Part shown: positions 57,410-61,361 of the stretch, one piece after another | How the letters are laid out: each line of letters begins with the position of its first letter | How positions within the stretch are numbered: the stretch's first letter is position 1 | Assembly (NCBI RefSeq): GCF_022829605.1 | Contig: NZ_JAKSYD010000122.1 | Coordinates: forward strand, 1-64,000 | DNA: 64,000 nt | Source: Methylobacterium sp. E-065 | GTDB taxonomy: Bacteria > Pseudomonadota > Alphaproteobacteria > Rhizobiales > Beijerinckiaceae | Direction: 5' to 3' | The notes under the pieces: generated by a model | Told to the model about the DNA's origin: nothing | The model's database searches: none | What the model saw: only the letters and a program-made list of their open reading frames with translations | Translations under genes and position numbers: made by a program

Positions 57410-58357
57410 TCATGCCGCGGTGCGGCGTAACACAACGACGCGGCCCGGCACCGGCAGCCCGGCCTCCCGCCGGACCCCGGCCGGACGCAGGGTGAGGGTG
57501 CTCAGGCCGGCGGCGGCGGATGCCTCCGCGATATGGGCATCCGCATGGGCGTAGCGCCCGTCGGCGCCCAGGACGGCGCCCGATCCGTCGTCATGGGACT
57601 GCACCGTGAAGGCGGCGAGCCCGCCCGGTCGCAGCACGCGGCCGATCCCTGCCAGGACGGGGCCGAGATCCGCCACGTAGATCAGCACGTCGGCGGCGAG
57701 GCAGAGGTCAGCAGAAGCCTCTGTCTCCACTGTCAGGAAGCCGGCCAGATCGCCCTCGGCGAGGCGGTCATAAAGCGGCCGGCCCTGCCAGGTCTTGGCC
57801 CGCGCCAGGGCCAGCATGCCCGGGGAGAGGTCGACACCCGCGAGGTGCCCGACCCGCTCGCGGATCGCCGCGCCCATCAGGCCGGTGCCGCAGCCCAGAT
57901 CGAGGGCCGCCGCGAAACGCTCGGGCACGCGGGGGAGGGCGTCGCTGACCAGTTCCGGGCCGATATAGGCGAGGCCCCCGACCAGATGGCGCTCGAAGCG
58001 CGGCGCGTAGCCGTCGAACAGGGCGCGCACATAGGCGGGCGAGAGTGCCGGCAGGCCGTCCCCGACGCCCAGGCGGCTGAGCTGTGCCCGCACGCCGAGC
58101 ATGTCGTCCGGGTCGATGTCGAGGGCGCAGGCATAGGCTCGGGCCGCCGCGTCGCGCATCCGCTCATCGCCGCGCGCCGCCAGCCCCTCCCGCGCGCGGC
58201 CGAGCAGCAGCCAGGCCGGGGCGTAGCGCGGGGCGATCTCCAGAACCTGCTCGGCGAGATCCGCGGCGGCTTCGGGGTCGCCCTCGGCCAGGCAGGCTTC
58301 GGCGTACCGATAGCGGCGGTCGGCGAGGAGATCGCCGGAACTGTGCTGCGTGGCCAT
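57410..58357 (-). CDS. SAM-dependent methyltransferase with N-terminal TPR-like part
   Basis: 315 aa. About residues 10-105 form tetratricopeptide-like helices (RYRYAEACLAEGDPEAAADL, LAEQVLEIAPRYAPAWLLLG). The class I methyltransferase domain has LDLGCGTGLMGAAIRE near 165 and GVDLSPGMLALARAK, with LCLAADVLIYVADLGPVLAG. The acceptor cannot be told; related proteins are annotated as trans-aconitate-like or ubiquinone-like methyltransferases. Divergent from the ligase-associated exonuclease. Confidence 0.85.
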   Translation of the reverse strand: MATQHSSGDLLADRRYRYAEACLAEGDPEAAADLAEQVLEIAPRYAPAWLLLGRAREGLAARGDERMRDAAARAYACALDIDPDDMLGVRAQLSRLGVGDGLPALSPAYVRALFDGYAPRFERHLVGGLAYIGPELVSDALPRVPERFAAALDLGCGTGLMGAAIRERVGHLAGVDLSPGMLALARAKTWQGRPLYDRLAEGDLAGFLTVETEASADLCLAADVLIYVADLGPVLAGIGRVLRPGGLAAFTVQSHDDGSGAVLGADGRYAHADAHIAEASAAAGLSTLTLRPAGVRREAGLPVPGRVVVLRRTAA

Positions 58358-58425
58358 GCGTCTGCCGGTTCGGGGGCGCCTATATACCGGGGCCACCGGC
58401 GAACTCCACCGGCAGCACGGACCCG

Positions 58426-59484
58426 ATGCCGATACGCGCCAGCGATCTCCTGACCCTGACCCGCGAGGGCCTCTATTGCCCCCTCGGAGGCTTCCACGTC
58501 GATCCGACCTGGCCGGTGGAACGCGCGCTGATCACGCACGGCCACGCCGACCACGCCCGCTCCGGCCACCGCCACGTGCTGGCGACGCCCGAGACCCTGC
58601 GGATCATGGCGGTGCGCTACGGCGCGGATTTTTGCGACCATCGGCAGGCGGCGCCCCTCGGCGAGCCGATCCGCATCGGCGACGTCACCGTGCGCTTCGC
58701 CCCCGCGGGCCACGTCCTCGGCTCGGCGCAGATCGCCATCGAGCGGGAGGGCGCCCGGGTGGTGGTCTCGGGCGACTACAAGCGGGCGCCGGACCCGACT
58801 TGCCTGCCCTTCGAGGTCGTGCCTTGCGACGTGTTCATCACCGAGGCGACGTTCGGGCTGCCGGTCTTCACCCATCCCGATACGCGCGGCGAGGTGCGCA
58901 AGCTGCTGGACTCGGTGCGGCTGTTCCCGGAGCGGGCCCACATCGTCGGTGCCTACGCGCTCGGCAAAGCGCAGCGGGTGATGGCGCTGCTGCGCGAGGA
59001 GGGTTGGGACCGGCCGATCCACCTGCATGGGGCAATGGAGAAGCTGACCGCTCTCTACAAGGAGGAAGGCGTGCCGCTCGGCGAGACGCCGAAGGTGGTG
59101 GCCGCCGAGCGCAAGGACCTGCACGGGGCGATCGTGATCTGCCCGCCTTCGTCGATCCAGGATCTCTGGTCGCGCAAGTTCCCCGACCCGGTCACCTGCT
59201 TCGCCTCGGGCTGGATGCGGGTGCGCGCCCGCGCCCGCCAGAAGGGCGTGGAACTGCCGATGGTGATCTCCGACCATTCCGACTGGCCGGACCTATGCCG
59301 CACCATCCGCGAAACCGGCGCCGAGGAGGTCTGGGTGACGCACGGGCAGGAGGATGCGCTGGTCCATTGGTGCGGGACGCAAGGCATCCGGGCCAAGCCG
59401 CTGCACCTGCTCGGCTACGGCGATGACGGCGAGGCCGAGCCGGCGTCCACGGAGCCTGGCCCCGAGAAAGAGGCGGTCGCGTGA
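58426..59484 (+). CDS. Ligase-associated DNA exonuclease (metallo-beta-lactamase/beta-CASP fold)
   Basis: 352 aa. The metal-binding HGHADH is at 38-43, VVVSGDYKRAPDPTCLPFE and GYALGKAQRVM-like AYALGKAQRVM follow, and the C-terminal ISDHSDWPDLCRTIRETGAE holds the last metal His. This family is genetically tied to an ATP-dependent DNA ligase in many proteobacteria, and here the ligase start overlaps its stop (GTGA). It probably trims DNA ends for repair. Confidence 0.92.
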   Translation: MPIRASDLLTLTREGLYCPLGGFHVDPTWPVERALITHGHADHARSGHRHVLATPETLRIMAVRYGADFCDHRQAAPLGEPIRIGDVTVRFAPAGHVLGSAQIAIEREGARVVVSGDYKRAPDPTCLPFEVVPCDVFITEATFGLPVFTHPDTRGEVRKLLDSVRLFPERAHIVGAYALGKAQRVMALLREEGWDRPIHLHGAMEKLTALYKEEGVPLGETPKVVAAERKDLHGAIVICPPSSIQDLWSRKFPDPVTCFASGWMRVRARARQKGVELPMVISDHSDWPDLCRTIRETGAEEVWVTHGQEDALVHWCGTQGIRAKPLHLLGYGDDGEAEPASTEPGPEKEAVA

Positions 59485-61361
59485 ACGAGTTCGCCCACCT
59501 CCTCGACCGCCTCGCCTACGAGCCCCGTCGCAACGCCAAGCTGCGGATGCTCCAGGATTATTTCGCGCGCACGCCCGACCCGGAGCGCGGCTACGCGCTC
59601 GGCGCCATGACGGGCACACTGAGCTTTCGCGAGGCCAAGCCGGCCCTGATCCGGGGGTTGGTGGAGGAGCGCATCGACCCGGTGCTGTTCCGGCTGTCGC
59701 ACAATTACGTGGGCGACCTCGCCGAGACCACGGCCCTGATCTGGCCGACACCGCGCGATCTCCCTCCCCCCTCTGCGGGGGAGGGTACCCTGCACAGCAG
59801 GGGGAGAGAGGGGCTGCGCGACGATGCGGGTTCCAACTCGCGAAGCGACCTTCCCGGCAGCGTCGCTCCCCTCTCCCGACCCGGCCTGACGGCCGGCCCA
59901 CCCTCCCCCGCAGAGGGGGGAGGGGATGCGCGCGTCGGGATCGGTCACAACAACCCGCCACCGCACGTCCCGACCCTGGCCGAGGTCGTGGAAACCCTCG
60001 CCACGATCCCGAAGCGCGAACTCCCCCGCCACCTCGCCGACTGGCTCGACGCCCTCGACGAGACCGGGCGCTGGGCGCTCCTGAAGCTCGTCACCGGCAA
60101 TCTCCGCGTCGGCGTCTCGGCGCGGCTTGCAAAGACGGCGGTCGGCGCGCTGGGCGGTCACGATGCCGATGCGGTCGAGGAGGTCTGGCACGGGCTCACG
60201 CCCCCGTTCGAGACCCTGTTCGCCTGGGTCGAGGGCCGGGCCGAGCGCCCCGAGACCCTGAACCCGGCCCCGTTCCGGCCACCGATGCTCTCCCACCCGA
60301 TTGAGGAGGAGACCGACCTCGACAAGCTGGAGCCGGAGGCGTTCTCGGCCGAGTGGAAGTGGGACGGCATCCGCGTCCAGCTCGTCGGCGGTCGCGACCG
60401 GGCGGGAGAGCAGGTCGGAAAGGTCTATTCCCGCACCGGCGAGGACATCACCGGGGCGTTCCCCGATCTCGCCGAGGCGATCACCTTCAAGGGCACGCTC
60501 GACGGCGAGTTGCTGATCCTGCGCGAGCGCCGGGTTCAGAGCTTCAACGTGCTGCAACAGCGCCTGAACCGGAAGGCGGTCACGGCCAAGCTCTTGGAAG
60601 AATTCCCCGCCCATGTGCGGGCCTACGACCTGCTGACGCTGGACGGCGACGACCTGCGGGCCGATCCGTTCGTGGAGCGTCGGGCGAAGCTGGAGGCCCT
60701 GGTCACGCGCCTCGATCATGCGCGCGTCGACATCTCGCCGCTGGTGCCCTTTGCCGACTGGGAGGCGCTCGCTGCCGCCCGGGCCGATCCGGCCTCGGTC
60801 GGGGCGGGTGACGATGCCGATGCCATCGAGGGCATCATGCTCAAGCGCCGCAACAGCCCTTACCTGCCGGGCCGCCCGAAGGGTCCGTGGTGGAAGTGGA
60901 AGCGCGAGCCGCACGTGGTCGACGCCGTGATGATGTACGCCCAGCGCGGGCACGGGAAGCGCTCGTCCTTCTACTCGGACTACACGTTCGGGGTCTGGCG
61001 GGAGGCACCCGAGGGCGGCGACGAGCTGGTGCCGGTGGGCAAGGCCTATCACGGCTTCACCGACGCGGAACTGGCCAAGCTCGACCGCTACGTCCGCAAC
61101 AACACGACCAAGCGCTTCGGCCCGGTGCGCGAGGTTGCGCACGGGCAGGAGGCCGGGCTCGTTCTGGAAATCGCCTTCGAGGGCGTGCAACGCTCGACCC
61201 GGCACAAATCCGGGGTGGCGATGCGCTTCCCCCGGGTCAGCCGGATCCGTTGGGACAAGCCCCCCACGGAGGCCGACCGGATCGACGTGCTGGAGCGCAT
61301 CCTCGCCCGGGGCGAGCGCGAGATCGCGCCCGGGGCGGCTTTGCTGGAGACGGATTCATGA
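59481..61361 (+). CDS. ATP-dependent DNA ligase carrying an in-frame palindromic element
   Basis: 626 aa. N-terminal DNA-binding domain (1-290) opens NEFAHLLDRLAYEPRRNAKL. The adenylation domain has catalytic Lys293 in EWKWDGIR, YSRTGEDIT, DGELLI, EGIMLKRRNSPY and KWKREP. The OB domain ends GVAMRFPRVSRIRWDK. Residues ~94-148 are encoded by a 163-bp inverted-repeat element and have no family counterpart (Pro/Ser/Gly/Arg-rich). The rest is of normal length (~570 aa) for ligase-associated repair ligases. The insertion is in a loop-like place between ETTALIWP and the next helix, and the frame is intact, so it may still work. Confidence 0.92.
   Translation: MNEFAHLLDRLAYEPRRNAKLRMLQDYFARTPDPERGYALGAMTGTLSFREAKPALIRGLVEERIDPVLFRLSHNYVGDLAETTALIWPTPRDLPPPSAGEGTLHSRGREGLRDDAGSNSRSDLPGSVAPLSRPGLTAGPPSPAEGGGDARVGIGHNNPPPHVPTLAEVVETLATIPKRELPRHLADWLDALDETGRWALLKLVTGNLRVGVSARLAKTAVGALGGHDADAVEEVWHGLTPPFETLFAWVEGRAERPETLNPAPFRPPMLSHPIEEETDLDKLEPEAFSAEWKWDGIRVQLVGGRDRAGEQVGKVYSRTGEDITGAFPDLAEAITFKGTLDGELLILRERRVQSFNVLQQRLNRKAVTAKLLEEFPAHVRAYDLLTLDGDDLRADPFVERRAKLEALVTRLDHARVDISPLVPFADWEALAAARADPASVGAGDDADAIEGIMLKRRNSPYLPGRPKGPWWKWKREPHVVDAVMMYAQRGHGKRSSFYSDYTFGVWREAPEGGDELVPVGKAYHGFTDAELAKLDRYVRNNTTKRFGPVREVAHGQEAGLVLEIAFEGVQRSTRHKSGVAMRFPRVSRIRWDKPPTEADRIDVLERILARGEREIAPGAALLETDS
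59762..59924. mobile_element. MITE-like palindromic element inserted inside the ligase gene
   Basis: 163 bases bounded by perfect 25-base inverted repeats: 59762-59786 and 59900-59924 (CCCTCCCCCC-TCTGC-GGGGGAGGGT and its reverse complement). Inside is a second imperfect dyad (GGGAGAGAGGGGCT against GCTCCCCTCTCCC). The sequence style is that of dispersed intergenic palindromes in methylobacteria. No transposase is encoded, and no clear target duplication is seen. It keeps the ligase frame open and adds about 55 codons. Confidence 0.75.

Follow-up and report, generated by a model that had tools for sequence, protein, structure and literature searches.

The window analysed here, a 64,000-nucleotide stretch of Methylobacterium sp. 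E-065 DNA, lies on contig C113 of the 7.0-Mb genome G000 and includes a gene for an ATP-dependent DNA ligase, in which most of a 65-codon linker consists of a palindromic element, hereinafter family A (Table 1; genomes and loci are denoted by G and L numbers). The two arms of the element are complementary at 25 of 25 positions, each forms a short hairpin on its own (CCCTCCCCC and GGGGGAGGG), and a repeat search extends the pairing to 59752-59786 and 59900-59934. The extended region has a predicted folding energy of -141.5 kcal/mol against a mean of -91.5 kcal/mol for shuffled sequences (z = -10.4; 0 of 200 shuffles as good), and a search for the arm pattern that tolerates up to 3 mismatches finds two matches in the window, both at the element, and none in 100 shuffled windows. 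The ligase reading frame runs through the element without a break, and the protein matches the profile TIGR04120 (“cisplatin damage response”) over residues 2-608 with 840.3 bits, well above the curated cut-off of 400. The preliminary description of this locus as a 163-bp palindrome with perfect 25-bp inverted ends, in frame in a DNA ligase gene, therefore holds; its placement of the element in a linker before the adenylation domain is right only in rough terms. Since the respective Pfam domain begins at residue 268, the insert does not immediately precede the adenylation domain; it is part of the N-terminal region, with the invariant residues W88-P89 on one side and G155-H156-N157 on the other.

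Table 1. Coordinates of the ligase gene, the palindromic element and adjacent features in the 64-kb window
Feature	Position	Strand	Remarks
Upstream ORF	58084-59484	+	Residues 122-448 match TIGR04122, ligase-associated DNA damage response exonuclease
ATP-dependent DNA ligase gene	59481-61361	+	626 aa; GTG start overlaps the stop of the upstream ORF
Full variable linker, ALIWP to GHNNPP	59748-59942	+	65 codons here
Wider inverted repeat	59752-59934	+	35-nt arms, 89%; possible real element limits
Palindromic element, family A, 163 bp	59762-59924	+	~54 codons in the ligase frame
Left inverted arm, 25 bp	59762-59786	+	Itself a hairpin; translated PPPSAGEG
Right inverted arm, 25 bp	59900-59924	+	Translated PSPAEGGG

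The named relatives of this ligase come mainly from Methylobacterium, Methylorubrum and Microvirga. In an AlphaFold2 model built from a 26-row alignment, which was set aside as too poor for use (pLDDT 37), residues 87-165 form a coil between helices; this is only suggestive. A search of Rfam over positions 59300-60400 yields nothing above the gathering threshold, the best sub-threshold matches having E-values of 0.009 and higher. On the minus strand, an antisense frame of 596 aa (59415-61205) covers most of the ligase gene together with the element; it is probably spurious, in GC-rich DNA.

The element is one copy of a dispersed repeat, as its appearance had been taken to indicate. A search of G000 with the element returns 87 partly overlapping matches at E ≤ 0.001, many of which are arm-only or represent one place counted on both strands; the closest of the other copies has 92% identity across 163 bp. 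Matches to family A are present in 100 of the 111 genomes of the genus. Among 77 full-length copies, collected with the ligase copy as the query, only five (in three ligases, one E2 acyltransferase and one helicase) pass a coding test, that is, a coding GC pattern on both sides and one open frame; the other 72 fail, two of them (L010 and L089) near the threshold, and the ORFs at these two loci have no Pfam match. A Pfam search with 39 further ORFs that span family A copies finds domains flanking the element only in the E2 gene at L074. In a plasmid collection, family A occurs in four records, with no listed gene under the best place (the gene table is incomplete). Around 70 copies outside the ligase, helicase and E2 genes, no consistent target-site duplication is found, the best direct repeat being 6 bp in five copies with shifting offsets, and G000 lacks the Y1 transposase domain characteristic of RAYT (PF01797), which 5 of 14 control genomes contain, so that transposition of the family is not demonstrated. 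The length of 53 of these 70 copies is 1 mod 3; thus, family A keeps a reading frame more easily than random DNA would.

In the relatives, alignment of the ligases reveals either an empty site or a different insert, and not 55 conserved residues, at the place where the element had been described as adding codons. An empty linker of a single type is found in eight relatives, with 11 codons in seven (G043, G094, G103, G098, G029, G027 and G097) and 10 in the eighth (G066). Two sister pairs, each with an SH-aLRT value of 99, combine the filled and the empty state: G071 carries family A and G103 the 11-codon empty site; G028 carries family A and G066 the 10-codon one. The family A inserts of ligases span 130-184 bp, and 211 bp in one that contains a nested repeat. 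Other repeats in the same linker are denoted B (G080 and others), C (G044 and others), D (G007, G022 and G018), E (G085) and F (G013, G048 and G092). In G006 and G083, F is nested within a remnant of A, and in G075 and G052 C and B stand in tandem. Similar in-frame inserts are present in six Microvirga loci (L206, L207, L209, L210, L212 and L217) and in two more genera of the order (L231 from G126 and L244 from G219). The linkers at L231 and L244 each apparently contain two repeat units.

A blastn comparison of one representative of each insert type detects similarity of B to F (78% over 78 bp) and of the Microvirga insert to that of G058 (84% over 43 bp), and A, C, D and E match other inserts over 23 bp at most; thus, the inserts fall into six sequence groups, namely A, B/F, C, D, E and Microvirga/G058. 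The inserts of B, C, D, E and Microvirga, for each of which one carrier genome was searched, all have further matches in that genome. Those of B and D span much of the insert, those of C do so in four places and are otherwise confined to the arms, and those of E and Microvirga are mostly partial (best E-values 2e-7 and 1e-12, respectively).

The reading frame is retained throughout this variation. Within the genus, 88 of 88 readable ligase loci are in frame and stop-free (90 loci were tried, two of which lack one side). Likewise in frame and without a stop are all 78 readable loci of the named set, where many species recur from the genus set, and all 27 readable loci from a search of the order, one of which is a genus member again; three of these 108 loci lack one side. 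Linkers of at least 30 codons are present in 50 of the 90 rows of the ligase tree and in 49 of its 87 genus rows. Over 23 species pairs, which are not independent because they have species in common, differences in the linker are distributed over the three codon positions as 272:285:377 (17%, 18% and 24%; about 20% overall), and those in the rest of the gene as 507:353:2759 (3.9%, 2.7% and 21.4%). Thus, the linker diverges, at every codon position, roughly as fast as third positions do, and a visible constraint exists only on the frame.

The state of the linker changes often. On a quick single-gene DNA tree of 90 rows, computed with the linker left out, there are at least 21 changes between long and short linkers and 34 changes of linker family, where families are assigned by motif and four long linkers are classed as “other”. 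The tree includes 87 of the 111 ligases of the genus; those left out are G089 and G090, each divided between contigs, and 22 sequences that score lower or are fragmentary. The ligases of G044 and G038 are almost identical, and their linkers have 75 and 39 codons, respectively. The short linkers of G019 and G049 resemble, by eye, one leftover hairpin, which suggests in-frame decay. The inner hairpins of the ligase inserts, also by eye, are alternative cassettes in different species, and the G000 ligase insert is 92% identical to another copy in G000 vs 80% to the ligase insert of its sister. Gene conversion as the sole source of new inserts is nevertheless rejected: the linkers of the 23 pairs diverge at about the third-position rate, so that inheritance suffices for most inserts.

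The same pattern of in-frame repeats is observed in at least two genes beyond the ligase. In G041, a family A copy lies in the ligase-associated DEXH helicase (TIGR04121, 911.5 bits against a cut-off of 850). All 45 readable helicase loci are in frame, with A, F, nested, collapsed or short linkers; 32 of the 45 linkers have at least 30 codons and the remainder are short or empty. The first 30 of these loci are the best matches to a query bearing A, and the other 15 were picked by hand from lower matches, mainly for gaps at the linker. Two of the 20 A inserts in helicases have a length of 2 mod 3, which is compensated elsewhere in the linker. Another repeat lies between the arms of A in one of the 20 helicase inserts (G028) and in one of the 19 ligase inserts (G083). 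At G103:C1:2862898-2865178, the helicase match is broken into two parts around query residue 446, outside the linker.

A family A copy in G084 separates the lipoyl domain from the E3-binding domain in an E2 acyltransferase, for which the best NCBIfam name is pyruvate dehydrogenase E2 (531.6 bits, just below the cut-off of 552.1). The E2 sample comprised 30 loci, of which two lack one side and G083 was left out, given a gene that extends over two contigs and an upstream match of only 53% identity. In the remaining set, 25 of 27 readable loci are in frame. The exceptions are G051, which is out of frame across the linker, and G029 (L393, C1:580100-582000, a single-contig genome), where an A-like insert coincides with a stop or frameshift, due either to a genuine break or to a sequencing error in a homopolymer. 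The E2 gene of G000 itself contains an F-like insert.

All intact family A inserts are read in one common frame (PPPSAGEG...), in 19 of 19 ligases, 20 of 20 helicases and nine of nine E2 genes (48 of 48 altogether), although the helicase and E2 counts are biased because the loci are the best matches to A-bearing queries in one frame; the tenth E2 insert, that of G029, begins in this frame and is then broken. In copies outside the three genes, this frame is open in 118 of 140 reads, compared with 101 and 73 for the others. This uniformity may stem from a single founding insertion in each gene, from the more frequent openness of the frame or from tolerance of its hydrophilic peptide; the founding insertions of family A across the three genes are possibly as few as three. 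Repeat F, by comparison, is read in two frames in the ligase (four and three loci), two in the helicase (four and four) and one in E2 (12), a pattern that, taken together, is more in keeping with tolerance than with sequence-specific use. It is doubtful that family A is shaped to be insertable into proteins, spreading through tolerant linkers and between genes, although the common frame in three unrelated genes, the openness of this frame elsewhere and the prevailing copy length of 1 mod 3 would fit such a reading; if this were true, DNA-damage enzymes of one functional set would be its favoured hosts.

These observations are, with high probability, best explained by insertion of REP/BIME-like repeats, of which those that keep the frame survive in tolerant linkers and then drift or collapse in frame. 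Family A would be a non-autonomous palindrome of this kind, in which a variable middle is enclosed by two hairpin units in inverted orientation. One copy would have entered a flexible loop of the ligase in the ancestor of this Methylobacterium group and persisted as ~54 stop-free, mostly hydrophilic codons at a place where the protein tolerates additional length, and the insert is presumably translated as part of the protein, judging from the open frame. Other repeats would have entered the same loop in other lineages in like manner, as well as the linkers of the DEXH helicase and E2. Insertion as the direction of change, and survival through selection for frame, are what we infer from the distribution of filled and empty sites. 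An insert could subsequently drift, exchange internal hairpins with another copy or from one of its arms to the other, probably through conversion or template switching, be entered by another repeat, or shrink through deletions that keep the frame until a single hairpin, or nothing, is left.

The conservation of the arms admits another interpretation. Over 12 close relatives, the two arms are 95.6% and 94.7% identical, compared with 68% for the middle, 67% for the flank and 76% for third codon positions, as might be expected if the insert were kept for a benefit, e.g., if a longer disordered linker, or a hairpin in mRNA or DNA, tuned a DNA-damage enzyme. Two of the three genes are named in NCBIfam as parts of one DNA damage response set, and many REPs in repair genes are reported in the accessible part of PMC3733652. 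The arm identity is, however, also expected from correction of the arms against each other or against other copies that share them; because the copies of the family have common arms, such homogenisation, between copies or arm against arm, is the simplest reading, although selection on a DNA or RNA hairpin could also contribute. Given also that the residues of the linker are without constraint and that closely related species differ in their inserts, the tree requiring many changes of state, a beneficial role is unlikely.

Slightly less likely still is a true insertion hotspot, in which the DNA of the loop would attract repeats beyond mere tolerance. The occurrence of six repeat groups in one linker and of F inside a remnant of A in two genomes is in line with this possibility, as is the concentration of repeat-unit motifs in 28 ligase loci, with 51 matches in 5.3 kb of linker vs two in the other 131 kb, although the motifs were picked from the linkers themselves. 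Selection that removes insertions elsewhere in genes would yield the same picture through survival alone, and no common target word is apparent by eye in the empty linkers. It is very improbable, and here rejected, that the insert inactivates the gene, or that translation starts downstream of it, making it effectively non-coding: translation of the insert is, to be sure, deduced from the frame, but residues 1-89 are strongly conserved in relatives with and without an insert, purifying selection acts on the remainder of the gene (codon differences over the 23 pairs: 2496 synonymous vs 723 amino-acid-changing), and all readable loci of the genus retain the frame. Finally, that the linker is an ordinary fast-evolving, low-complexity coil, repeat-like by chance, can be dismissed outright, even though the genus is GC-rich and P, G, A and S commonly abound in such coils, because dispersed copies exist, the best at 92% identity, and the arms pair perfectly in a fold far beyond that of shuffled sequences.

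Several known systems resemble the present case. According to the accessible parts of PMC2229807 and PMC10969869, the Rickettsia palindromic elements are short palindromes with inverted ends, 105-146 bp long (PMC2229807), that occur between genes and, in frame, in 19 conserved protein genes, and one enzyme with such an element is active with altered affinity. Family A likewise combines in-frame copies in the ligase, helicase and E2 genes with the majority of copies that fail the coding test; it differs in its taxon, apparently in being longer as a rule (130-184 bp in the ligases, 211 bp with a nested repeat, and 163 bp, with 25-bp perfect arms, in the ligase considered here), and in that the Methylobacterium linker houses several sequence groups with turnover across the genus. 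The resemblance to the Rickettsia elements that had been proposed for this locus stands as a likeness, at the level of description, in the way the element works, and not as membership in that group.

The accessible text of PMC3733652 describes GTAG/CGTC REPs as hairpin repeats inside ORFs, often in DNA repair genes, DNA ligase among them, with different REPs at about the same recB site in two Xanthomonas genomes. For family A, the GTAG/CGTC tag was found on neither side of the arms: the outer side, examined in 70 copies (140 ends), has a weak C/T preference only, and the inner side shows no tag, by eye, in 12 aligned ligase inserts. Furthermore, the GTAG class has the RAYT transposase, the domain of which G000 lacks. 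Because the tag was not found, the element is not assigned to this class. MITEs such as Correia/NEMIS, ERIC and RU are similar in that they are ~100-200 bp long, many with inverted ends and some with an open frame that is joined in frame to a gene (PMC2229807, accessible part). Family A shares the inverted ends, but no target-site duplication, which MITEs have, was found, and for this reason it is not assigned to them either. REPINs consist of two inverted hairpin units around a spacer. The same arrangement, in a mosaic of modules, is described for BIMEs in the accessible part of PMC2817692. Family A differs from both in that no associated Y1 transposase is present in G000, and is likened to them by description. 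The titles and abstract openings returned by searches of a paper library, one with few subscription papers, mention no such inserts in Methylobacterium, and a term search does not find the word Methylobacterium in the accessible text of the RepRanger paper (PMC12306157) or of a paper on Bradyrhizobium repeats (PMC5082802).

In-frame palindromes are thus already known from Rickettsia and from scattered intragenic REPs; here, several different repeats recurrently occupy the same protein linkers. The ligase linker provides a comparative series across dozens of species, with empty, single, nested, tandem, collapsed and hairpin-exchanged states, and is a natural record of the lengthening of proteins by repeat DNA. 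With so many sequenced species in the genus, the questions of whether such inserts are tolerated or useful, and why repair genes are involved, become directly testable.

Further family A copies lie outside the three genes. At L061 (G092), the element lies upstream of a PucC-like protein (PF03209 match) or in its N-terminal extension. At L308:1004-2992 (G090), a family A copy with an adjacent F-like unit has the same setting; here the protein was recognised as PucC-like by eye and has no NCBIfam match. In three species (L068 in G028, L071 in G083 and L076 in G062), family A is located directly upstream of a CcmH domain, so that non-genic copies, too, are apparently inherited at fixed sites.
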